Below are positions 11,424-25,137 of a stretch of 64,000 nucleotides of DNA, in pieces (within the stretch, counting starts at the first letter, position 1; each line of letters begins with the position of its first letter). A model generated the notes under the pieces. It ran no database searches, was not told where the DNA came from, and saw nothing but the letters and a program-made list of their open reading frames with translations. This DNA is from Jiangella alkaliphila (GTDB taxonomy: Bacteria; Actinomycetota; Actinomycetes; Jiangellales; Jiangellaceae). The position numbers and the translations under genes were made by a program. Where the stretch lies: assembly GCF_900105925.1 (NCBI RefSeq), contig NZ_LT629791.1, positions 248,001 through 312,000 of the forward strand, written 5' to 3'.

Positions 11424-12965
11424 ATGACGCCCGAACCCGCGCTGCCCGGTCTGCGCCACCACCATCCACCCGACGGCCCACCCGTGGACGCCGATGCCGA
11501 CGTCGTCGTCTACGGCGCCACGTCGGGCGGCGTCGTGGCGGCGGTGCGGGCCGCCCGCGGCGGGCAGTCGGTGGTGCTGCTGGCCTTCGGCGACCACGTC
11601 GGCGGCATGACCACGGGTGGCCTCGGCACCACCGACGTCGGCGACGCGCGCACGGTCGGCGGCCTGGCCAGGTCGTTCTACGACGACGTCGCGGCGGCCT
11701 ACGGCGCACCCGCGCCGCACTGGGACGTCGAGGCGCACGTCGGCGAGGAGGTCTTCGAGCGCTGGCTGGCCGAGGCGGGCGTCACGGTGCACCGGCGGCG
11801 GCACCTGGCGTCGGCCGAGCGCGACGGCGAGCGCATCACCGAGCTGCGCACCGACGACGGCAGCGGGTACCGCGCGAAGGTCTACGTCGACGCCTCCTAC
11901 GAGGGCGACCTGCTGGCCGCGGCGGGGGTCACGTACACGCTGGGCCGCGAGGCGTCCTCGGTCTACGACGAGACGGTCGCCGGCGTCCGGCACAGCGTCA
12001 ACCACCAGTTCGACCTACCGGTCGACCCGTACGTCGTGCCCGGCGAGCCGGCGTCCGGGCTACTGCCGGGCATCTCGGCCGACCCGTACGGCAAGGTCGG
12101 CGACGGCGACCGGCGCATCCAGGCGTACAACTTCCGGCTGCACGTCACCACCGCGCCCGGCCGGCTGCCGTTCCCGCGGCCGGCCGGCTACGACCCCGCC
12201 CGCTACGAGCTGCTGCGCCGCTACGTCGAAGCCGGCGGCTACGAGCTGTTCGGCCGCACCACCCGGGTCCGCGGCGACGTCTACGACATGAACAACCACG
12301 GCGCGTTCTCGTCGGACCACATCGGCGCCAATTACGACTGGCCCGAGGGCGACTACGCCCGGCGCGAGGAGATCTTCCAGGACCACGTCCGCTACCAGGC
12401 CGGGCTGCTGCACTTCCTGGCCACCGACCCGCGGCTGCCGGCGGACGTGCGCGCCGAGACCAACCGGTTCGGGCTGGCGCCGGGCGAGTTCGCCGACAGC
12501 TCGCACTGGCCGGCGCAGCTGTACATCCGCGAGGCGCGGCGCATGGTGTCCGCCTACGTCATCACCCAGCACGACGCCACCGGCGGGTCCCGGGCCGCCG
12601 ACCCGGTCGCGCTGGCCTCGTACGTCATGGACTCCCACAACGCGAAGCGGGTGCTCGTCGACGGGCAGCCACGCAACGAGGGCAACGTCCAGCAGCCGCT
12701 CACCGCGCCGTTCGGCGTCTCCTACCGCGCGCTGGTGCCGCGGGCCGGCGAGTGCTCCAACCTGCTGGTCGCGTCGGCCATCTCCGCGTCGCACGCAGCG
12801 TTCGCGTCGGCCCGTATGGAGCCGGTGTTCATGATGCTCGGCGAGGCCGCCGGCGTCGCCGCGGGGAAGGCGATCACCGATAAGGTCGCGGTCCAAGACG
12901 TCGAGTACGCCGCGCTCCGGCGCGAGCTCGTGCTCGGCGACGCCATTCTGCCGGCCGGCAACTGA
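11424..12965 (+). CDS. FAD-dependent oxidoreductase (FAD_oxidored type), third paralogue
   Basis: A 513-residue cytoplasmic flavoprotein transcribed away from the importer operon. Signatures include DVVVYGATSGGVVAAVRAA (flavin binding), FGDHVGGMTTGGLG, VYVDASYEGDLLAAAG, RIQAYNFRLHVT and a C-terminal SASHAAFASARMEPVFMMLG, nearly block for block those of the product of 8036-9583. A related but distinct oxidation step on the same glycan is plausible. The ATG at 11424 is the only sensible start and lacks a ribosome-binding site, in line with the leaderless promoter. The LacI-type gene follows after 18 bases, probably in the same operon. Confidence 0.87.
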   Translation: MTPEPALPGLRHHHPPDGPPVDADADVVVYGATSGGVVAAVRAARGGQSVVLLAFGDHVGGMTTGGLGTTDVGDARTVGGLARSFYDDVAAAYGAPAPHWDVEAHVGEEVFERWLAEAGVTVHRRRHLASAERDGERITELRTDDGSGYRAKVYVDASYEGDLLAAAGVTYTLGREASSVYDETVAGVRHSVNHQFDLPVDPYVVPGEPASGLLPGISADPYGKVGDGDRRIQAYNFRLHVTTAPGRLPFPRPAGYDPARYELLRRYVEAGGYELFGRTTRVRGDVYDMNNHGAFSSDHIGANYDWPEGDYARREEIFQDHVRYQAGLLHFLATDPRLPADVRAETNRFGLAPGEFADSSHWPAQLYIREARRMVSAYVITQHDATGGSRAADPVALASYVMDSHNAKRVLVDGQPRNEGNVQQPLTAPFGVSYRALVPRAGECSNLLVASAISASHAAFASARMEPVFMMLGEAAGVAAGKAITDKVAVQDVEYAALRRELVLGDAILPAGN

Positions 12966-12983
12966 CACGGGGGTGACACAGCG

Positions 12984-14141
12984 GTGACCGACTCCGAGAG
13001 CGAGCGCACCAGTGGCAGCCGCCGGTCGCGGCAGGCCGACGTCGCCCGCGAGGCCGGCGTCTCGCAGTCGACGGTGTCCATGGTGCTCACCGGCGCGGGC
13101 GACCTCGGCCGCATCTCGCCAGAGACCCAGCGGCGCGTCCTCGAGGCGGCCCGGCAGCTGGACTACATTCCGGCGGCCCAGAGCGTGCGGGTCGGCTGGC
13201 CGGTCACCCGGCAGGTCGCGACTCGGCAGGCGACCGCGCGGCAGGCAGCGTCACGGCAGGCCGGGTCACGGCAGGCGGCGGCGCGGCAGCTGGCCTCGCC
13301 GCTGCTGCTCGGCGTGCACACGTTCGAACCGATCTTCCCGACCAGCGCCCGCGACTACTACTTCGAGTTCCTGCGCGGCATCGAGGTGCAGGCCGGCGCC
13401 GAGGGCCACAACCTGGTGCTGTTCACGGCGGCGCAGGACGAGGACGGCGTCCGGCGCATCTACCAGGACAACCTCAACCGCCTGGGGCAGGCGACCGGCA
13501 GCCTGCTGCTCGGCTACCACCCGCACCGCGACGACCTCGCCCACCTCGCCGCCGACGGCTACCCGTTCGCCTACATCGGCCACCGCGAGGTGTCGGGCGC
13601 CGAGATCAGCTACGTCGGCGGCGACTACCGGTCCGGCACCGGCCGCATCGTCGACGAACTGGTCGCCATGGGTCACCGCACGTTTGCCTACCTCGGCGAC
13701 GCCCTCCGCGACGAGCCGCAGGTCGACCGCTGGGACGGCTTCAGCAGCGCGCTCGGCCGGTTCGGGCTCCCGGTGCCCGAGCCCGCCTACGACCGGCCCG
13801 ACGAACTGACCGCCCAGTGGCTCGACGGCGTCCTCGATGCCGGCGCGACCGTGGTCATGGTCGAGTCGGTCGGCCTGCTGCGCGTGCTGACCGCCATGGC
13901 CGGCCTGCGTGGCCTGTCCATCCCCGACGACCTCTCCGTCGTCCTCCTGGTCGACGATCCGGGCGGCGAGGTCGGCGGCCGCGAGTGGGCGTCGCTGCAG
14001 GTGCCGCGCAACGCTATGGGGCGGCGCGCGGTCCGGCTGCTGACGTCGCTGATCACCGACCCGCAGGGCGACTACGAACGGCAGATCCTGCTGCCGTGCA
14101 CACACACGCTGGAGGGATCGGTCTCGCCGCCGCGCGGCTAG
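12984..14141 (+). CDS. LacI-family transcriptional regulator with expanded hinge
   Basis: A 385-residue regulator. The helix-turn-helix is at residues 17-40 (ADVAREAGVSQSTVSMVLTG) and the DNA-binding domain continues to about residue 67. Next comes an unusual run of six pentapeptides of the form x-Arg-Gln-x-Ala/x (residues 75-104), then a periplasmic-binding-like effector domain (LLLGVHTFEPIFPTSARDYYF onward) ending at HTLEGSVSPPRG. The GTG start at 12984 lies 18 bases after the flavoprotein stop. It is the likely local repressor of the glycan locus, acting on the palindromes at 11262 and 11373. Its stop overlaps the convergent reductase gene by four bases. Confidence 0.88.
   Translation: MTDSESERTSGSRRSRQADVAREAGVSQSTVSMVLTGAGDLGRISPETQRRVLEAARQLDYIPAAQSVRVGWPVTRQVATRQATARQAASRQAGSRQAAARQLASPLLLGVHTFEPIFPTSARDYYFEFLRGIEVQAGAEGHNLVLFTAAQDEDGVRRIYQDNLNRLGQATGSLLLGYHPHRDDLAHLAADGYPFAYIGHREVSGAEISYVGGDYRSGTGRIVDELVAMGHRTFAYLGDALRDEPQVDRWDGFSSALGRFGLPVPEPAYDRPDELTAQWLDGVLDAGATVVMVESVGLLRVLTAMAGLRGLSIPDDLSVVLLVDDPGGEVGGREWASLQVPRNAMGRRAVRLLTSLITDPQGDYERQILLPCTHTLEGSVSPPRG
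13206..13295 (+). repeat. six 15-bp tandem repeats inside the LacI-type gene
   Basis: Six consecutive 15-bp units encode TRQVA, TRQAT, ARQAA, SRQAG, SRQAA and ARQLA. Each unit carries CGGCAG. The last unit resembles the usual LacI-family hinge-helix sequence (ARQLAS), so the array looks like an in-frame expansion of the hinge coding sequence. Confidence 0.85.
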
Positions 14142-15081: not shown

Positions 15082-16395
15082 TCACCACGCCGGTTCCGGC
15101 CGCCCGTCCCCGATGCCGCGCAGCCGGTCACGGTGCGCGACCACCCGGCGGAAGATCTCGGCCAGGACGTCCGGGAACCGCGGATCGCGCAGGAACTTGG
15201 TGTGCACGAACACCGCCCGCTCGACCACCCGCGCGGACACGTCGTAGGAAAGATCAACGCCCTCGGCCCAGTGCCGCCAGGCCGGGTCCAGGTGCGTCGG
15301 CGTGAAGCCGGCCTCGGCCCAGACGCCCTCCGCGGCCAGCGCCACCCGCAGGTCCTTCGGCGTCAGGCCGAGCGACGACTCGAGCGCATCGGTGCAGGAC
15401 AGGTACAGCGCGAAGAACGGCGGGTACTCCGCGTCCGGCGGCGGGTTCCACAGGACCGGCTCCGGGAACACCGAGGCATCAGCGATCAGCGAGCGGATCA
15501 GCCGCCGGTTCTCCCGCATCACCAGCCGGGCGTGCAGCGCGCGCAGCCACTGCACCAGCAGCAGCGCCGCCGGCTGCTCGCCCATGCGCTGGTTGCCCGC
15601 CATCATCGGCCCGACCTCGGCGTACGGGATCGGGTCGAGGCGGCCCGGCCCGGTGCCGCAGTCGGTGTCGGCGCGCAGTAGCGCGGCCAACTCCGGGTCC
15701 GAGGTCACGGTCAGCCCGCCCTCGCACGACGGTGCCGCCTTGCCGCCGCCCTGGCCGGAGATCGACGCCGTCGGCGCCCCATCGCCGTCGAACCGGGCCG
15801 CGCCGCCGAGCGCGTTGTCGTGGTGGACGACGACGTCGTACTGACGGCCGAGCGCGGCGAACCGGTCGATCGCGCCGAAGTTGCCGTACATGGTCGCGGG
15901 GACGACGGCCAGCACCCGGTCCGCGTGCCGCGCCAAGTACTCCGCCGCGACCTCCTCGTCCATCGTCGCGTCGAGCTTGGCGGGGATCGGCACCAGCCGC
16001 GGCGACCGGCCCAGCTGCGCGGCCACGCCCAGCACGACGCCGTGATGCGCCGACGCGTGCGTCAGGTCCGCCACCAGCACCTCGTCCCGCCCCTGCGCCC
16101 ACGACGCACGCGATGCACCCCGGGCGAACAGCTGGGCCCGCAGCCCGCTCGCGATCGCCAGGGTGCCGTTGGGCTGGCCGACGCCGTACCGGTAGCCGGT
16201 GGTGTCGGCGACGACCTGCTCGAGCACCGCCCGCCACTTCGCCGGGTGGTTGGCATACCCGACCCACTGCCCGCCGTCGGTGACCTCGCCGAGGATCGCG
16301 CTTTCGACGCCGCCGACCTCCGGCCACACCGGGTCGTTCGCCGAGGTGACGACAGGGTCACCGCCCAGCACGGCCGGCAGCGCGACGCCGCTCAT
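15082..16395 (-). CDS. DegT/DnrJ/EryC1/StrS-like PLP-dependent aminotransferase
   Basis: A 437-residue fold-type I PLP enzyme. The cofactor Asp is in VVHHDNALGG (D193) and the Schiff-base Lys is probably K219 in SGQGGGKAAPSCEGGLTVTSD, which aligns with the DegT-family block normally reading SFHPTK-N-TGEGG. The loop is atypical, with GQGGGK replacing the usual aromatic/His segment, so the substrate may be unusual. It is the last gene of a leftward import operon and its start overlaps the enolase-superfamily stop by four bases. Transamination or elimination on a keto-sugar made by the dehydratase is an inference. Confidence 0.8.
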   Translation of the reverse strand: MSGVALPAVLGGDPVVTSANDPVWPEVGGVESAILGEVTDGGQWVGYANHPAKWRAVLEQVVADTTGYRYGVGQPNGTLAIASGLRAQLFARGASRASWAQGRDEVLVADLTHASAHHGVVLGVAAQLGRSPRLVPIPAKLDATMDEEVAAEYLARHADRVLAVVPATMYGNFGAIDRFAALGRQYDVVVHHDNALGGAARFDGDGAPTASISGQGGGKAAPSCEGGLTVTSDPELAALLRADTDCGTGPGRLDPIPYAEVGPMMAGNQRMGEQPAALLLVQWLRALHARLVMRENRRLIRSLIADASVFPEPVLWNPPPDAEYPPFFALYLSCTDALESSLGLTPKDLRVALAAEGVWAEAGFTPTHLDPAWRHWAEGVDLSYDVSARVVERAVFVHTKFLRDPRFPDVLAEIFRRVVAHRDRLRGIGDGRPEPAW

Positions 16396-17540
16396 CGCGG
16401 GCCTGCGTCAGAGAAGAGGGAATGGCCCGGCGCGTACCGCTCCAGCGCGTCGGCGTCGAGCCGCACCCCGAGCCCCGGCGACGACGGCACCGGCAGCAGC
16501 CCGTCGGCGTCCAGCGCGAACCCGCCCGCGGCCAGCTCGTCGATGTAGGCCGACCCGGTCTTGTACTCCACCAGCTCGGTCCCGGGCAGCGCCGCCGCCA
16601 GGTGCAGGTCGGCGGCCAGCCCGACGGCGGTGTTCCAGCCGTGCGGGACGAAGCCGACGCCGTACTCGCCGGCCAGCCAGGCCACCCGGCGCGACTCGGA
16701 CAGCCCGCCGCCCTTCGTCGTGTCGGGCTGGACGAGGTCGAAGGCGCCGGCGGTGAGGAACCGGTGGAAGTCCTGCCTCCGGGTCAGCACCTCGCCACCG
16801 GAGATCGGCACCCGCGAGCGCGACCGCAGCGAGACGAAGCCCTCGACGTCATCGGGTCGCAGCGCCTCCTCGAACCAGGCGACGTCGTAGCCGGCCAGCA
16901 TGTCCGACGTCCGCACCGCCCACGACAGGCCGCGAGCCCAGAACGCGTCGGACCCGCCGGCGTCGACGGCCAGCAGCGCGTCCGGCCCGACGGTCTCGCG
17001 CGCGGCCCGCACGATCTCCTCGTCCACCGCGTCGCCGACCCGGCCGAAGGCGCCCCAGCCGATCTTGAACGCCGTGAACCCGAGCGCCACCAGCCGGGCG
17101 AGGTCGTCCTTCAGCACCGGCGGGTCGTCCATCAGCACCGACGCGTACGGCCGGACCCGCTCGCGGTACCGCCCGCCCAGCAACGTGCTGACCGGCAGCC
17201 CGGTGACCTGGCCGAGGATGTCCCACAGCGCGATGTCGATGCCGCTGACGGCGTGCGTGACGGCGCCGCCGCGGCCCAGCCAGAACGTGTGCTCGTGCAG
17301 GATCTGGCTGACCCGGTCCGGCTCTCGCGGGTCGGCGCGGACGGCGAGCGGACGCAGCGTCTCCAGCGCCGCCCGCACCAGCGCCTCGCTGGAGAACACG
17401 CTGCCGATGCCGACGACGCCCTCGTCGGTGTGCACCGCGACCAGCGTGTGGACGTTGTCGTCCGGGTCCAGCTCGCGCGCCCAGCCGCCCTTCGGGGTCG
17501 CGCCGCGCAGTCCGGCCGCCCTGATGTCAGTGATCCGCAT
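16392..17540 (-). CDS. enolase-superfamily enzyme (mandelate racemase/muconate lactonizing type)
   Basis: A 382-residue enzyme with an N-terminal capping domain (1-120) and a TIM barrel. Metal ligands are visible as AVDAGG (D193), WFEEAL (E224 or E225) and ISGGE (E250), with D273 in QPDTTKGGG and H300 in VPHGW forming the His-Asp dyad of acid-sugar dehydratases. The second-strand motif is FKIGWG: K159 is present, but the second Lys of the common K-x-K is Gly. A sugar-acid dehydratase is the best guess. The start overlaps the upstream fusion gene by 14 bases. Confidence 0.85.
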   Translation of the reverse strand: MRITDIRAAGLRGATPKGGWARELDPDDNVHTLVAVHTDEGVVGIGSVFSSEALVRAALETLRPLAVRADPREPDRVSQILHEHTFWLGRGGAVTHAVSGIDIALWDILGQVTGLPVSTLLGGRYRERVRPYASVLMDDPPVLKDDLARLVALGFTAFKIGWGAFGRVGDAVDEEIVRAARETVGPDALLAVDAGGSDAFWARGLSWAVRTSDMLAGYDVAWFEEALRPDDVEGFVSLRSRSRVPISGGEVLTRRQDFHRFLTAGAFDLVQPDTTKGGGLSESRRVAWLAGEYGVGFVPHGWNTAVGLAADLHLAAALPGTELVEYKTGSAYIDELAAGGFALDADGLLPVPSSPGLGVRLDADALERYAPGHSLFSDAGPR

Positions 17541-20373
17541 GATCCCTCTCCACGTCGATGACGACCGCCTCGCCGGCGGCCAGCTCGAGCTCCGTCCCCG
17601 CGACCGGCCGCGGCGCCGCGCCGGTCGTCGACAGCACCACCCGCCCGGTCACGGACGACGGCACCGTCGCCGGCCGGTCGGTCAGGTTGAGCAGGACGAG
17701 CTTCCGGTCGCTCCCCGCGGACCGGGTGTAGGCGAGGACCGAGTCGGTTCCGCCGGCGAACGCGATCGAGCCGCGACGCAGCGCCGGCGACGCGTGCCGC
17801 AGCCGGGTCAGCGCCCGGTACAGCCGCAGCATCGACGCCGGATCGGCCAGCTGAGCGGCCACGTTGAGCGTCGCGACGTCATGCGACACCGGCAGCCACA
17901 GCCGCGACTCGTCCGCCGTGGAGAAGCCGCCGGTCGCGCCGTCCGTCCACGGCATCGGGGTACGGGACGGGTCCCGGCTCACGCCGCCGTGGGTGCGGGC
18001 GAAGTAGTCGCGCTGCCGATCGACCGGCACCGGCTGGTCGGTCATGCCCAGCTCGTCGGCGTACAGCAGGCACGGCGTCGCGGCCAGCGTGAGCAGCAGG
18101 ACAGCCGCGACCCGCGCCTGCGCCGGGCCCAGCCGCGTCGCCAGCCGCGGCCGGTCGTGGTTGCCCAGTGCGACGATCGGCCAGGCGCCGTCCGGCAGCG
18201 CCGCGTACAACGCCTCCAGCTCCGAGCGCAGCAGGTCGGCCCGCCAGTGCGTCTCCAGCAGCCGGAACGGGAACGGCAGGTGCATCCCGGCGGCGTAGTA
18301 CGCGGCCCAGTCCGCCCACGGCATCGCCTCGATCTCGGCGATCGTCACGCGGCCGCCCGCGTACTCGTCGGCGACGGCGCGGATCTCGGCCAGCGCCGCG
18401 AAGGTGTCCGGGTGCCGCCGGTCGTGGACGTGCAGCTGGGTGCCGAAGTCGGGATGCTGCAGGTCGAACACGTTGTGATGACCCTCGGGCGCCGACGGGT
18501 TGTCGCGGAACTCGGGGTCCTTCATCAGCATGTGCGCGACGTCGATCCGCACGCCGTCCGCACCCCGGTCCAGCCAGAACCGCAGCACGTCCAGCAGCGC
18601 CTTGCGGACCTCGGGGTTGCGCCAGTTGAGGTCCGGCTGCTCGACCAGGTGCGAGTGCAGGTAGTACTGCCCGGTCGGTTCGTCGTACTCCCACACCGAG
18701 CCGCCGGCCTCGCTGGTCCAGTTGTTCGGCTCGTCGCGCCACATGTACCAGTCCCGCTTCGGGTCGTCTCGCGACGAGCGGGACGCGACGAACCACGGGT
18801 GCTGGTCGGACGTGTGGTTCGGGATGTAGTCGACGATCACCCGGATGCCCCGCTCATGGGCGGCGGCGACCAGCCGGTCGAACGTCCCGAGCGTCCCGAA
18901 GACCGGCTCGACGTCGAGGTAGTCGGACACGTCGAAGCCCTGGTCCAGCAGCGGCGACCGGAAGAACGGCCCGGTCCAGACCGCATCGACGCCCAGGTCG
19001 CGCAGGTAGTCCAGGCCCTCGATCAGCCCCTCCAGGTCGCCGATGCCGTCGCCGGACCCGTCGCGGAAGCTGGGCAGGTGGCACTCGTAGACGACGGCGC
19101 CGCGCCACCACTCCGGATCGGCGGACCCGCGGAGCAGCCCGGCCGCCCGCACCCCCGCCGCGACCAGGTCGTCCGAGATGTCCGGCCGGAACGGCAGGTG
19201 ACCGGCGATGATCGGCACCTCGTAGGCCGGGTACGGGTCGGCCGGCGGCTCGTACGCGTCGTGCGTCGGCGCGTAGCCGAGCCAGCCGTTCGTCGTCGAC
19301 AGCACCAGGCAGTGCTCGCCCAGCGCCTCCACCAGCCGCCGCTTGATGCCGTCGAACACCTCGACGTTGTAGCCGAGCAGCGTCAGCGGGCCGAGCCGCA
19401 GTGCGTGCACCCACAGCGGCCGGCGCACCTCTCGCCCCTCCTCCAGCGCGGCGACGGTGCGGCGCAGCGACAGGGACGTGACGTCGTCGCCCTCGTCGCG
19501 GCGTTTGCGCAGCTCATCGAGGTCGTACGGGGCCAGCTCGTACGGGATCTCCTGCTTGACGACGGCGACGGCGTCGTCCTCGACCGGGGTGCTCCCGGCG
19601 ATGCCGGCGGTGACGGCGTCGGCGAACCGGCCGGCGAACAGCTCCAGCGCGACCATCGACTCGTCCGCCGGGCCGTGTGCGTACAGCGGGTTGACGTCGC
19701 CGAGCGCGCCCTGCAGGAACACCCCGGTCGCGCCGGGGTGCGCCGCTTCGACGATCCGCAGCGCCTCGCCCGGGAAGTCGCCGTGCACGGCCGACGTCGA
19801 CTCGCAGCAGATCACCGGGTGACACGAGTACGACGCGACGAACCCGGCCAGCGCGCCGTCGTGGTCGACCCGCAGCACGTGCACGCCGGAATCGATCAGT
19901 GCCGGGTCGCGCGACGGCAGCATGCGGTTGTGCGCGAACTCCTCTAGGGGGACGACGGCGTGCCGCACGGTCGCGGGGGCGAGCCCGCGCACCGCCGCGA
20001 CGCACGCGCGGGCGATGAGGTCCGCGACCCCCGCGACGTACTGCTCGTCCGGCGCGCCCCAGCCCACGTTCTCGACGGTGGCCGGGCCGGAGTGGTTGTG
20101 CGTGGCGTGGACGACGACCTCGTCCGGCCGCCAGCCGGTCGCGGCGGCGACCCGCGCGGCCACGTCGTCGACGATCGAGGCCGCCACGCCCAGCAGGTCG
20201 CAGCTGACCAGCACCCAGCGCCCGCCGTCGGCACCGGCGACCGCGACGGCCCGGGCGTACAGCGGGGCGTGCACGGACGTCGCCCGGCGGCGCAGGAACG
20301 GGCCGAAGCCGGCCAGCTCGACGCCCAGCGGCGGGGTGAGGTCGGTCCGGCCGAAGCCGATCCGCAAGGTCAT
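17527..20373 (-). CDS. fusion protein: ceramidase-like N-domain plus GH13 alpha-amylase-family C-domain
   Basis: A single 948-residue open frame. Residues 1-420 match the neutral/alkaline ceramidase-like family, with ITPP-like LTPPLGVELAGFG, HATHNHSGP as metal-binding block, SYSCHPVICC and LQGALGDVNPLY. Residues from about 430 form a complete GH13 enzyme starting at WWRGAVVYECHLPSFRDGSGDG. It has DYIPNHTS, the nucleophile in GVRIDVAH (near 608), the acid/base Glu in TIAEIEAMPW (near 678), ALGNHD (near 741) and RTPMPWTDGATGGFS, plus a C-terminal beta domain. There is no signal peptide. The ATG at 20373 lies eight bases from the permease stop. No stop or frameshift is visible at the junction (19120-19170). 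Confidence 0.85.
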   Translation of the reverse strand: MTLRIGFGRTDLTPPLGVELAGFGPFLRRRATSVHAPLYARAVAVAGADGGRWVLVSCDLLGVAASIVDDVAARVAAATGWRPDEVVVHATHNHSGPATVENVGWGAPDEQYVAGVADLIARACVAAVRGLAPATVRHAVVPLEEFAHNRMLPSRDPALIDSGVHVLRVDHDGALAGFVASYSCHPVICCESTSAVHGDFPGEALRIVEAAHPGATGVFLQGALGDVNPLYAHGPADESMVALELFAGRFADAVTAGIAGSTPVEDDAVAVVKQEIPYELAPYDLDELRKRRDEGDDVTSLSLRRTVAALEEGREVRRPLWVHALRLGPLTLLGYNVEVFDGIKRRLVEALGEHCLVLSTTNGWLGYAPTHDAYEPPADPYPAYEVPIIAGHLPFRPDISDDLVAAGVRAAGLLRGSADPEWWRGAVVYECHLPSFRDGSGDGIGDLEGLIEGLDYLRDLGVDAVWTGPFFRSPLLDQGFDVSDYLDVEPVFGTLGTFDRLVAAAHERGIRVIVDYIPNHTSDQHPWFVASRSSRDDPKRDWYMWRDEPNNWTSEAGGSVWEYDEPTGQYYLHSHLVEQPDLNWRNPEVRKALLDVLRFWLDRGADGVRIDVAHMLMKDPEFRDNPSAPEGHHNVFDLQHPDFGTQLHVHDRRHPDTFAALAEIRAVADEYAGGRVTIAEIEAMPWADWAAYYAAGMHLPFPFRLLETHWRADLLRSELEALYAALPDGAWPIVALGNHDRPRLATRLGPAQARVAAVLLLTLAATPCLLYADELGMTDQPVPVDRQRDYFARTHGGVSRDPSRTPMPWTDGATGGFSTADESRLWLPVSHDVATLNVAAQLADPASMLRLYRALTRLRHASPALRRGSIAFAGGTDSVLAYTRSAGSDRKLVLLNLTDRPATVPSSVTGRVVLSTTGAAPRPVAGTELELAAGEAVVIDVERDHADH

Positions 20374-20380
20374 GGTCAGG

Positions 20381-21247
20381 TCATCCTTTCGAGACACCGG
20401 CCAGCAGGCCGCGGACGAAGTGCCGTTGCAGCGCGACGAACACGGCCATCGGCACCAGCACGGACAGCACGGCGGCGGACGTGAGGATCTCCCAGCCGTC
20501 GCCGCGCGAGGCGACCAGCTGCGACACCGCGACGGTCATCGGCGCGACATCGCGGAAGCCGCCGAGGAAGATCAGCGCGACCAGCAGGTCGTTCCACGTC
20601 CACACGAAGTCGAAGATGGCCAGCGCCGCGAGCGCCGGCCGGGCCACTGGAAGCACGATGGAGAGGAAGATCTGGCTCCGGCTCGCGCCGTCCATCTCCG
20701 CCGCCTCGAACAGTTCGCGCGGGATGGCGGCGAAGAAGTTGTGCAGCAGGTAGACGGCGAACGGCAGCCCGAAGCCCAGGTGCACCAGCCAGATGCCGAG
20801 GAAGCTACCGGTGAGGTCCAGCGTGTTGAACACCCGCAGCAGCGGCACCAGCGTGATCTGGATCGGCACGATGATCAGCGCGACGACGGTCAGCAGCACC
20901 GCCGACCGCAGCCGGAACCGCATGCCGGCCAGCGCGTACGCCGCGGCCGCGCCGAGCGCCACCGTCAGCACCGTCGCCGGCACCACCACAGCGAGGCTGT
21001 TGAACAGGCTCAACGCCATGCCGTCGCGGTCGAGCACCCGCCGGTAGTTCTCCAGCGTGTAGTCGCCGGGCAGCGCGAACGACTCCCACCACCCCGACGA
21101 CAGCACCGCCCACGACGGCCGGAACGCGCTGACCACCAGGCCGAGCAGCGGCACCGCCCAGATCACCGCGACGCCGACCACCACGACGTGCAACGGCACC
21201 CGCCGCCACCACGCCGGCCGCACGCGCACCGCTCCCGCCGCCGTCAT
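20381..21247 (-). CDS. carbohydrate ABC transporter permease, MalG type
   Basis: A 288-residue inner-membrane permease of a CUT1 sugar importer. The first helix is LHVVVVGVAVIWAVPLLGLVVSAF. The large periplasmic loop with LENYRRVL and the C-terminal EAA loop (IPRELFEAAEMDGASRSQIF) are typical of MalG-like subunits. The frame extends upstream to 21676, but the ATG at 21247 overlaps the MalF-type stop (ATGA), so it is the natural start. The gene sits between its partner permease and the fusion hydrolase. Confidence 0.92.
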   Translation of the reverse strand: MTAAGAVRVRPAWWRRVPLHVVVVGVAVIWAVPLLGLVVSAFRPSWAVLSSGWWESFALPGDYTLENYRRVLDRDGMALSLFNSLAVVVPATVLTVALGAAAAYALAGMRFRLRSAVLLTVVALIIVPIQITLVPLLRVFNTLDLTGSFLGIWLVHLGFGLPFAVYLLHNFFAAIPRELFEAAEMDGASRSQIFLSIVLPVARPALAALAIFDFVWTWNDLLVALIFLGGFRDVAPMTVAVSQLVASRGDGWEILTSAAVLSVLVPMAVFVALQRHFVRGLLAGVSKG

Positions 21248-22215
21248 GCCGCCGCGCTCTCCCGCCGGAACTGCCGCACGTTGAACACCATGATCGGCAC
21301 GACGGTGAGCATGAGGATCGTCGCGACCGCCCCGGCCAGCCCGTTGTCCTTCGCGGTGAACAGCGCCCGGTACATGACCGTCGACAGCACGTCGGTGCCG
21401 TAGTTGCCGTTGGTCATCACGTACACGATGTCGAACGCCTTGAGCGCGGTCACCGTCATCGTCGTCGCGACGACCACGACGGTCGGCACCAGGAACGGCA
21501 GCGTGACGTGCCGGAACGCCGCCCACTCCGACGCGCCGTCCAGCCGGGCCGCCTCCAGCAGCTCGCCCGGCACCGAGCGCAGTGCCGCGTCGAAGATCAC
21601 CATCGCGAACCCGGCCTGCGTCCACAGCGTCGCGCCGATCAGCGCGTAGTTGTTCGTCGCGGTGTCGACGATCCACGCGACCGGCTCGCCGCCCAGCGCC
21701 GTCACGACGGCGTTCAACGTCGCGGTCTGCGGGGCGCCGGGCGGCTGGTAGTCGTACATGAAGCTCCAGATCACCCCGGCCGCGACGGCCGAGATCGCGA
21801 TCGGCAGGAACAGCGCGGCCTTGACCAGCGCGCCGTAGCGCACCCGGTCGGCCAGCACGGCGATGGCCAGCCCGGCCAGCACCGCGAGCGTCGGCAGCAG
21901 CACCACCCAGAGCACGGTGTTGCGCAGCGCGACGCGGGTGACCTCGTCGGACAGCGTCTGCGTGTAGTTGGCGAACCCCGCGAACCCGCCGTCGTCATCG
22001 ACGAAGCTCCACCCGACCGTGACGACCGCCGGGAAGGCCAGCGCCAGCAGCACCATCGCGACCGCCGGGCCGGCGAACAGCCACGGCACCAGCCGCCGGT
22101 ACGCGCCCCGCGGCAGCGCCGCCAGCGCACGGTCGCCGAGGCGCAGGTAGGCCCAGCCGGCGACGACGATCACGGCCGTCGCCGCCAGCGTGAGGACGAT
22201 GCGATCGGCGATCAT
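21244..22215 (-). CDS. carbohydrate ABC transporter permease, MalF type
   Basis: A 323-residue permease with an extra N-terminal helix (LTLAATAVIVVAGWAYL), then PWLFAGPAVAMVLLALAF and the rest of a MalF-like core. The EAA loop reads VPGELLEAARLDGASEWAAF. The leading helix before the core is a common variant in actinobacterial systems. Both ends overlap neighbours by four bases, which supports coupled translation with the binding protein and the MalG-type subunit. Confidence 0.92.
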   Translation of the reverse strand: MIADRIVLTLAATAVIVVAGWAYLRLGDRALAALPRGAYRRLVPWLFAGPAVAMVLLALAFPAVVTVGWSFVDDDGGFAGFANYTQTLSDEVTRVALRNTVLWVVLLPTLAVLAGLAIAVLADRVRYGALVKAALFLPIAISAVAAGVIWSFMYDYQPPGAPQTATLNAVVTALGGEPVAWIVDTATNNYALIGATLWTQAGFAMVIFDAALRSVPGELLEAARLDGASEWAAFRHVTLPFLVPTVVVVATTMTVTALKAFDIVYVMTNGNYGTDVLSTVMYRALFTAKDNGLAGAVATILMLTVVPIMVFNVRQFRRESAAA

Positions 22216-23564
22216 CCCCGGGCGTCCTCGATGCCCTGCAGGATCGCGTCCAGGTCGCCCGGCTCCTGCGCGAACGCCAGCCCGGACTGCCAGAACGCGT
22301 CCACCTCGGACTGCGGCATCAGCGAGTTGCCCAGCGGGTACGTCGCCTCCGCCGCGGTCAGGACTTCCTGAGCGCGGCGCAGGAACGGGTCCTCGTACGC
22401 GTCGGCCGGCACCGTGACGTTCGGCGACAGCCAGCGGCCGGTCGCCGCGACCAGCGTGCCCGCCTCGGTGGAGGCGAGGTACCGGGTGAGCGCGGCCGAC
22501 TGCGGCGTCTCGTTGACCAGGCCGAGGATCTCGCCGGAGAACGAGGAGATGCCCGGATGCTCGGGATTGAAGTCCGGCGCGGGGAAGAAGTCGAGGTCCT
22601 CACCCGGCACCAGGTCGGGGAACGCGTCGGTGATGATGCCGCCCATGAACGTCGCCTGCTGGAGCAGGTAGCAGCCGGGCTCCGGCGCGAACATCGGGTT
22701 GGCCGCCTGGGAGAAGTCGGTGCTGAGCACCGTCGTCGTGCCGCCGTAGACCATGCCGTCGGCGATCATCTCGCCGTACGTCTGGTAGGCCTGCGCGACC
22801 TGCGGCGACGTCCACGGCTCGGCGCCCTCGCGCCAGGCGCGGTGGAACTCCGGACCGGCCTGGCGGAGCAGGATCTCGTCGATGAAGTCCGCGGCCGGCC
22901 AGCCGCTCGCGGCGCCGCTCTCCAGCCCGACGCACCACGGCGTCTCGCCGGCGGCTGCCTTCTCCGCGGCCCAGGTCTGCAGCTCGTCCCAGCTCTCCGG
23001 CTCGGTCGGGCCGTCGTAGCGGCGCGGGTCGTACCAGATCAGGCCGCCCAGGTTGACGGTGCTGTACAGGCCGAACAGCTCGCCGCCGGCCGTGCCGGTC
23101 TCGAGCATGCTGGCCGGGTAGTTCGCGCTGAGCACGGCGTCGTCGACCACCGTTGCGAGGTCGACGAGGGCGCCCTGCTCGGCCAGCGCCGCCATCTCGC
23201 CGATGGCCGGCGTGGCGACGAGGTCGGGCGGGTTGCCGCCGTCGATGCGGGTCTGCAGGACGGCGGCGAAGTCGCGGGTGCCCTCGTAGCGCACCTCGAT
23301 GCCGGTGGCGTCCTCGAACGGCGCGACCACGCTGAGGAACGCGTCGAGCTCCTCGCCGCCCAGCACGCCGAGCATCGTCACGCTGCCGCCGAGCTCCTCG
23401 CCGTCGGCTGCCGCGAGCGCGGCTTCTTCGGCGGCGGCGACCGCGGCGTCGTCGGCCGCCGGTTCCTCCGGACGGGCGGACTGGTCGCCGCTGCTGCACG
23501 CGGCCAGCGCGGTGATGACGGCACCCGCCGCGACCAGCGCGGTCCCACGGTGACGCAGGTTCAT
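22212..23564 (-). CDS. extracellular solute-binding lipoprotein of sugar ABC importer
   Basis: A 450-residue binding protein. The N-terminus is a lipoprotein signal (LRHRGTALVAAGAVITALAAC, Cys at about residue 23), followed by an acidic Ala/Glu-rich linker and an SBP_bac_1-like body with VTMLGVLGGEELDAF, then IEVRYEGTRDFAAVLQTRIDGG and NPPDLVATPAIGEMAALA. The start at 23564 is fixed by GAGGAG eight bases upstream. An upstream extension to 23753 would run through the promoter region. It is the first gene of the leftward operon, divergent from the GntR gene. Confidence 0.92.
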   Translation of the reverse strand: MNLRHRGTALVAAGAVITALAACSSGDQSARPEEPAADDAAVAAAEEAALAAADGEELGGSVTMLGVLGGEELDAFLSVVAPFEDATGIEVRYEGTRDFAAVLQTRIDGGNPPDLVATPAIGEMAALAEQGALVDLATVVDDAVLSANYPASMLETGTAGGELFGLYSTVNLGGLIWYDPRRYDGPTEPESWDELQTWAAEKAAAGETPWCVGLESGAASGWPAADFIDEILLRQAGPEFHRAWREGAEPWTSPQVAQAYQTYGEMIADGMVYGGTTTVLSTDFSQAANPMFAPEPGCYLLQQATFMGGIITDAFPDLVPGEDLDFFPAPDFNPEHPGISSFSGEILGLVNETPQSAALTRYLASTEAGTLVAATGRWLSPNVTVPADAYEDPFLRRAQEVLTAAEATYPLGNSLMPQSEVDAFWQSGLAFAQEPGDLDAILQGIEDARG

Positions 23565-23702: not shown

Positions 23703-24374
23703 ATGAGCGGGCTGGGCTTGCGCCGGGTTCCGAGCCTGTCGCGGCGCGAGCACGTCGCCGAGATCCTGCGTGAGGCGATCACCAGCGGCCGGCTCAAACC
23801 GGGCGACCGGCTGATCGAGCTCGACCTCGCCGCCGAGCTGGGCACCAGCCGCGCCCCCATCCGCGAGGCGCTGCGCCAGCTCGAGCAGGAGGGGCTGGTC
23901 GCGTCCTATCCGTACCGCGGCAGCGAGGTGCTCGGCGTCTCACAGGACGAGGTCGAGCAGGTGCTGGTGCCGATCCGGATCACCCTGGAACGGTTCGCGT
24001 TCGGCAAGGCGCTGGACAAGCTGACCGACGACGACCTCGACGCCCTGCAGGGCATGGTCGACGACATGCTCGCCGCTGCGTCGGCGGGCGAGGCCGAACG
24101 GCTGGCCGACCTCGACATCCGGTTCCACGAGCTGGTCATCACCCGCTCCGAGCAGCGGCACTGCCTGCAGATGTGGAAGACCATCCAGCCGCGGGTGCGG
24201 GCGTACTTCCGCCGCGACGCACCGGCGCACGACGACCCGGCCGAGGTCGCCCGGCAGCACCAGGAGTTGCTGGACGTCCTGCGCGGCGGCGACCGCGACG
24301 CCGTGCTCGACGCCGTCGAGCGGCACATCCACATCCACCTCGCCCCGCGCGGAGCCGGCGACGATGTGGGCTGA
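23703..24374 (+). CDS. GntR-family regulator with FCD effector domain
   Basis: A 223-residue FadR-subfamily regulator. The winged helix occupies residues 8-75 (REHVAEILREAITSGRLKPG, RAPIREALRQLEQEGLV), followed by an all-helical FCD domain with the conserved metal-ligand helix pattern (DLDIRFHELVI, then HQELLDVLRGGD and ERHIHIHLAPRG). Such regulators normally sense organic acids or sugar acids. The ATG at 23703 follows GGAGG. It heads a four-gene operon and faces the sugar importer operon, so it may control both. Confidence 0.9.
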   Translation: MSGLGLRRVPSLSRREHVAEILREAITSGRLKPGDRLIELDLAAELGTSRAPIREALRQLEQEGLVASYPYRGSEVLGVSQDEVEQVLVPIRITLERFAFGKALDKLTDDDLDALQGMVDDMLAAASAGEAERLADLDIRFHELVITRSEQRHCLQMWKTIQPRVRAYFRRDAPAHDDPAEVARQHQELLDVLRGGDRDAVLDAVERHIHIHLAPRGAGDDVG

Positions 24375-25137
24375 GACGGTCGCCGTCACCGGGGCCGGTT
24401 CCGGCATCGGCCGGGCGGTGCTGCTGGCGGCGGCCGCGCGCGGAGCACGGGTGGCGGCGCTGGACGTGAACGAGGCGGCGGCCGCGTCGGTGGCCGAGCA
24501 GGCGCTGACCGCCGGGGCGGCGCGCGCCGTGGCCGTGCGGTGCGACGTCGCGTCCGAGTCGTCGGTGGCCGCGGCGTTCGACACGGTGTCGGCGGCGGTC
24601 GGCGACCCGGGCGCGGTGTACGCCAACGCCGGCATCGAGGTCAACGCCGCCTTGCACGAGTTCCCGGCCGGCGACTGGGAGCGCGTGGTGGCCGTCAACC
24701 TGGTCGGCGTGTTCCTCACCTGCCGTGAGGCGCTGCGCCGGCTGGTCGATGCGGGGCGCGGCGGCTCGGTCGTCTGCACATCGTCGCCGGCCGCCTTCGT
24801 CGGGCACTCCGGCGGCGGCAACAGCGCCTACGCCGCGTCGAAGGGCGGGGTGTCGGCGTTCGTCCGGTCGGCGGCGCTCGACTACGCGCCGTACGGCATC
24901 CGCGTCAACGCCGTCGTTCCGGGCGCGACCGACACCGCGATGCTCACCGCCGGGGGCGCCGACCCGGACCGGCTGCGGGCGGCGGCCGCGACCCAGATCC
25001 CGCTCGGGCGGCTCGGCCGGCCGGACGAGGTGGCCGCGGCGGTTCTGTGGCTGCTGTCCGGGGAATCGTCATACGTGACCGGGTCGCACCTGGTCTGCGA
25101 CGGCGGGCTGATGGCGAAGAGCGCCAACGACTTCTGA
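24364..25137 (+). CDS. short-chain dehydrogenase/reductase
   Basis: A 257-residue classical SDR. The NAD(P)-binding motif TGAGSGIGRA starts at residue 9. Asp near residue 34 (VAALDVNE) favours NAD(H). Next come YANAGIE, the catalytic Ser in CTSSPAAF and the YAASK Tyr/Lys pair. It ends SHLVCDGGLMAKS. The ATG at 24364 lies 11 bases inside the GntR gene. Together with the MDR dehydrogenase two genes on, it suggests sequential oxidation of a sugar or polyol. Confidence 0.9.
   Translation: MWAETVAVTGAGSGIGRAVLLAAAARGARVAALDVNEAAAASVAEQALTAGAARAVAVRCDVASESSVAAAFDTVSAAVGDPGAVYANAGIEVNAALHEFPAGDWERVVAVNLVGVFLTCREALRRLVDAGRGGSVVCTSSPAAFVGHSGGGNSAYAASKGGVSAFVRSAALDYAPYGIRVNAVVPGATDTAMLTAGGADPDRLRAAAATQIPLGRLGRPDEVAAAVLWLLSGESSYVTGSHLVCDGGLMAKSANDF

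Follow-up and report, generated by a model that had tools for sequence, protein, structure and literature searches.

The closest described relatives of the two parts of the gene analysed here are the neutral ceramidases (PF04734; P. aeruginosa 2zws and human 4wgk) and the alpha-glucosidases HaG (3wy1) and QsGH13 (7voh), the latter two being the nearest solved structures to its GH13 half. To our knowledge, the characterised members of the ceramidase fold are N-acyl amide hydrolases. The serine of the ceramidase motif GDxSPN (GDMSPN) matters for ceramide; GH13 enzymes cut alpha-glucosides and glucosylceramide is a beta-glucoside. It has been shown that the -1 subsite of HaG is made up of conserved residues including Tyr65 (PMC8928221). 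The literature that we searched had no paper on a fusion of these two families and none that deals with genes for ceramidase-like proteins in sugar operons, and it gave no function for the short proteins of this kind that are encoded in bacterial sugar operons. In a 64,000-nucleotide stretch of the genome of Jiangella alkaliphila, a member of a genus of soil actinomycetes, the whole of which stretch is called the window here, one gene joins the two (Table 1). Both domain families are known and their combination appears to be new and confined to one genus in the collections and papers searched.

One reading frame with two domains

The first-pass annotation had proposed a single gene in which a ceramidase-like domain is fused to a complete GH13 domain with no stop or shift between them, and this is what we found. 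The 948-residue frame is on the minus strand, which the annotation had not named, and runs without an internal stop from the ATG at 20373 to a TGA at 17527-17529, and AAGGA is present about 10 bases upstream of the ATG. Ceramidase_alk (PF04734) was detected by Pfam with an E-value of 2e-13 and 50.3 bits against a curated cut-off of 32.1, a match that is above the cut-off though it aligns residues 4-229 only, and when the separate relatives are aligned with it the domain reaches about residue 413. Pfam also detected Alpha-amylase (PF00128) at residues 435-868 (2.6e-108) and DUF3459 at the C terminus (residues 851-938), and the GH13 part starts at about residue 420 with WWRGAVVYE. The linker between them is short and both its length and its sequence differ between species (GLLRGSADPE, GRLGADSQ and GLVGGAGSDED). 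No secretion signal was seen by eye at the N terminus of the fusion (MTLRIGFGRTDLTPP) and no ceramidase C-terminal domain was found in it by Pfam. The structure predicted for the full-length fusion had a mean pLDDT of 37, a confidence too low for use.

Table 1. Features of the fused gene and its neighbours in the window
Feature	Position	Strand	Basis or remark
DegT/DnrJ/EryC1/StrS PLP aminotransferase-like gene	15082..16395	-	4-base overlap with MR_MLE gene
Enolase-superfamily (MR_MLE) sugar-acid dehydratase-like gene	16392..17540	-	14-base overlap with fusion
Fused gene, 948 aa, ceramidase-like domain + GH13 alpha-glucosidase-type domain	17527..20373	-	ORF, Pfam, 8 other Jiangella genomes
GH13 domain, residues 419-948 (D611, E680, D740)	17527..19119	-	Pfam, alignments
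Fusion junction, about residues 413-419, variable linker	19117..19137	-	Comparison among species
Ceramidase-like (PF04734) domain, residues 1-413	19135..20373	-	Pfam, alignments, model match to 2zws/4wgk
ABC transporter permease 2	20381..21247	-	
ABC transporter permease 1	21244..22215	-	Pfam
Lipoprotein solute-binding protein (SBP_bac_1), ALAACSS lipobox	22212..23564	-	
GntR/FCD regulator, divergent	23703..24374	+	Adjoins operon in Phytoactinopolyspora too
Short-chain dehydrogenase (SDR)	24364..25137	+	Conserved partner of GntR gene and operon

When the ceramidase-like domain was modelled by itself (mean pLDDT 69, pTM 0.79), the model matched the neutral ceramidases 2zws and 4wgk with a Foldseek E-value of about 1e-19 and TM-scores of 0.73-0.75 by query length, at only 18-21% identity. 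The ceramidase-family blocks pointed out in the first-pass annotation, HATHNHSGP and GALGDVNPLY, are at residues 89-97 and 222-231. Besides the fold, the domain shares with the neutral ceramidases the His, His, Glu and Tyr that align with the Zn site: H92/H94 (HATHNH), H185, E338 and Y367 align with the conserved metal-site motifs of canonical actinobacterial ceramidases, and N149/R150 align with their NR motif. These residues are the putative Zn ligands (two His, Glu and Tyr), and they are invariant even in a relative at 31% identity. Unlike in the neutral ceramidases, the GDxSPN serine is replaced by Asn228 (GDVNPLY), which may mean that the activity is changed or weakened, and the Jiangella protein also differs from them in that it has no visible signal peptide and no C-terminal domain, is fused to a GH13 domain and is encoded in an import operon. 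Related short ceramidase-like proteins have N, D or A at the position of this serine.

Nearly the whole of the GH13 domain aligns with HaG and QsGH13 (E about 1e-119). The three catalytic acids that had been claimed for it are present, D611, E680 and D740 being equivalent to HaG D202, E271 and D333, and H520, R609 and H739 are equivalent to HaG H105, R200 and H332. The His, Arg, His and Asp of the -1 subsite are kept, whereas the position of Tyr65 is taken by Phe480 in the fusion, and the fusion, unlike HaG and QsGH13, has an N-terminal ceramidase-like domain. Phe480 is found in every member of the clade, fused or not, and Tyr is found in paralogues that are matched by the same motif. Judged from these alignments, each domain keeps its core active site and both are predicted to be largely intact.

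The operon, its split relatives and the origin of the fusion

On the minus strand the operon has the order solute-binding protein, two permeases, fusion, MR_MLE and DegT, with four-base overlaps at several junctions, and its ABC transporter is of the sugar type, in agreement with the mention of bacterial sugar operons in the first-pass annotation. The nearest families to the MR_MLE protein are the sugar-acid dehydratases and the cycloisomerases, and it reaches no equivalog cut-off. For the DegT protein, weak similarity was found to perosamine synthetase and to 2-deoxy-scyllo-inosose aminotransferase, and a lysine is kept in the expected place (GGGKAAPS, by eye). Genes for a FAD-dependent oxidoreductase and a LacI-type regulator are present at 11424-14141 of the window, and in several other Jiangella genomes they likewise lie downstream of the operon.

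The full-length open fusion was found in nine of the 12 Jiangella genomes at 88-90% identity, the carriers among the relatives including J. anatolica, J. aurantiaca, J. muralis, J. endophytica and J. ureilytica. In the other three genomes the fusion is absent and so is the DegT gene of the operon; the presence of DegT matches that of the fusion exactly across the Jiangella genomes examined, and this suggests gain or loss of the operon as a whole. A sequencing error or a strain-specific fusion was considered and is ruled out because nine separate Jiangella assemblies agree, which excludes an artefact for practical purposes. The concern that the two genes might be separate elsewhere and joined in one strain only is likewise answered, as every operon-bearing Jiangella genome examined has the fusion. 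In the GH13 tree the domains from Jiangella group together as a single clade (support 100/100). The mean dN/dS (Nei-Gojobori) is 0.25 for the ceramidase-like domain and 0.18 for the GH13 catalytic domain, and therefore both halves of the fusion are under purifying selection; the linker has a value of 0.39 and the C-terminal tail one of 0.62.

Six Jiangella fusions and the protein of Phytoactinopolyspora alkaliphila share a 15-residue loop (GLTNARALDGSWTEP type) that follows the NRMLP motif and is missing in the fusion of the window (19894-19917, residues about 153-160) and in those of two other genomes (G005 and G011). The three fusions without the loop are not sisters in the GH13 tree, a distribution that points to repeated loss or recombination.

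The search for the two-domain architecture in other genomes, which the first-pass annotation had put forward as a check, gave besides the Jiangella fusions a split pair in P. alkaliphila, a member of the sister genus (G016; L023, L051). This species has the same operon in the same order and, unlike in Jiangella, the two domains are encoded by two separate genes, whose products are 64% (ceramidase-like) and 76% (GH13) identical to the corresponding parts of the fusion. The stop codon of the ceramidase-like gene overlaps a possible GH13 start at ATGA (CCCATGACT), and a second ATG is preceded by AAGGAG. The split arrangement is likely the ancestral state and, by parsimony, we infer a single fusion event on the Jiangella stem. 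A phage-integrase-family gene is located near the operon in P. alkaliphila (L023, 4070-4861) and is possibly a trace of horizontal transfer.

In another genome from the Phytoactinopolyspora genus group (G017), the GH13, MR_MLE, DegT, GntR and SDR genes are present and the operon has neither a ceramidase-like gene nor a transporter. As this operon does without a ceramidase-like gene, one activity can be dispensed with where the other is kept, and the two need not act together. The Amidase-family gene that follows DegT in this genome was considered as a stand-in for the ceramidase-like gene and was rejected because it has close homologues across the family that are outside the operon; its adjacency to DegT is probably incidental.

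Outside Jiangella, no PF04734 match was found in a frame longer than 760 aa in 198 genomes of the class. In a scan of 84,980 species genomes, close relatives of the ceramidase-like domain were found only in Jiangella and P. alkaliphila, a scan that used two short peptide patterns and could miss distant fusions. A search of 395 other genomes of the phylum gave no relative of the DegT encoded in the operon.

Possible function of the fusion

The fusion suggests that both enzymes share a substrate or a pathway. The explanation that we favour, to which we give about an even chance, is that it is a cytosolic bifunctional enzyme, merged once on the Jiangella stem, with an amidase-type Zn half and an alpha-glucosidase half. 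In an import operon, a ceramidase-like gene and the translationally coupled GH13 gene directly after it would have merged in frame. The ABC transporter would import a small hydrophilic alpha-glucoside from which the GH13 half would free glucose, and the ceramidase-like half would be a Zn-dependent hydrolase for an amide bond in that glucoside or in its aglycone and not for ceramide. SDR, DegT and MR_MLE might then oxidise, transaminate and dehydrate the released part, which would resemble an amino sugar or a sugar acid, and tethering would hold the two steps together at equal dose. Among the observations in favour of this explanation are the absence of a visible signal peptide on the fusion, the lipobox on the solute-binding protein and the recurrence of distant ceramidase-like genes beside MR_MLE, PLP-enzyme and deacylase genes or sugar ABC transporter genes (see below); the G017 operon, which keeps the GH13 gene without a ceramidase-like one, speaks against it. 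The narrower proposal, that a non-lipid Zn hydrolase without the ceramidase serine acts jointly with the alpha-glucosidase half on a single amide-bearing natural alpha-glucoside in an undescribed catabolic pathway, is put forward more tentatively.

Hydrolysis of an amide is ranked above that of a lactone or ester mainly because of the known activity of the fold on amides and because of the PLP enzyme of the operon, the DegT aminotransferase, which suggests a nitrogen-bearing substrate. It is nevertheless conceivable, if rather unlikely, that the ceramidase-like half acts as a Zn-dependent lactonase or esterase. SDR would then make a sugar lactone, the domain would open it, MR_MLE would dehydrate the resulting sugar acid and the GH13 half would supply the sugar. 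This alternative is retained because of the MR_MLE and SDR neighbours, the former being closest to sugar-acid dehydratases and cycloisomerases and recurring beside distant ceramidase-like genes and the latter being conserved with the operon, and because the ceramidase-like gene is dispensable in G017, as would be expected if lactones open spontaneously. The loss of the ceramidase serine also fits it.

A little less probable still is a fusion that arose as a side effect of the overlapping genes, in which a stop codon was lost and the product was kept as harmless with no shared substrate or channelling. The overlap of the unfused genes at ATGA means that a small change would suffice, the linker is short and variable, and one conserved GH13 operon has no ceramidase-like gene; however, the fusion has been retained in all nine operon-bearing Jiangella genomes and both of its domains are constrained.

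The first-pass annotation had supposed that the two parts act on the same glycoside or glycolipid, and while a common substrate or pathway is what the fusion suggests, a glycolipid is very improbable: an enzyme whose ceramidase-like half cleaves the N-acyl bond of a glucosylceramide-like lipid and whose GH13 half removes its sugar would be in keeping with the remote homology to neutral ceramidase, but the alpha specificity of GH13 against the beta linkage of glucosylceramide, Asn228 at the place of the serine, and a cytosolic setting with no secretion signal seen, no ceramidase C-terminal domain and an ABC importer for small solutes all speak against it.

With a partner enzyme whose chemistry is known, the fusion narrows down the possible function of the ceramidase-like domain and points to an α-glucoside, and it offers one clonable protein with both predicted activities, for which the split orthologues serve as controls.

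Distant ceramidase-like genes

In a sample of about 20 neighbourhoods, which is not a statistical test, genes for distantly related short ceramidase-like proteins were repeatedly seen in a catabolic setting. In two other actinobacterial genomes (L053, 6800-10370, and L107, 6500-13680) a ceramidase-like gene is found together with genes for MR_MLE, a class III aminotransferase and two aspartoacylase-type deacylases, and these clusters may be an undescribed catabolic pathway. In J. muralis (L099, 6497-14862) a second ceramidase-like gene is located beside genes for a sugar ABC transporter of the SBP_bac_1 type, a GFO/IDH/MocA oxidoreductase and ROK proteins. Another neighbourhood (L102, 8242-16253) has four ceramidase-like genes and two aspartoacylase-type genes, and close to them are genes for MFS transporters and for an ABC transporter of the SBP_bac_5 type.
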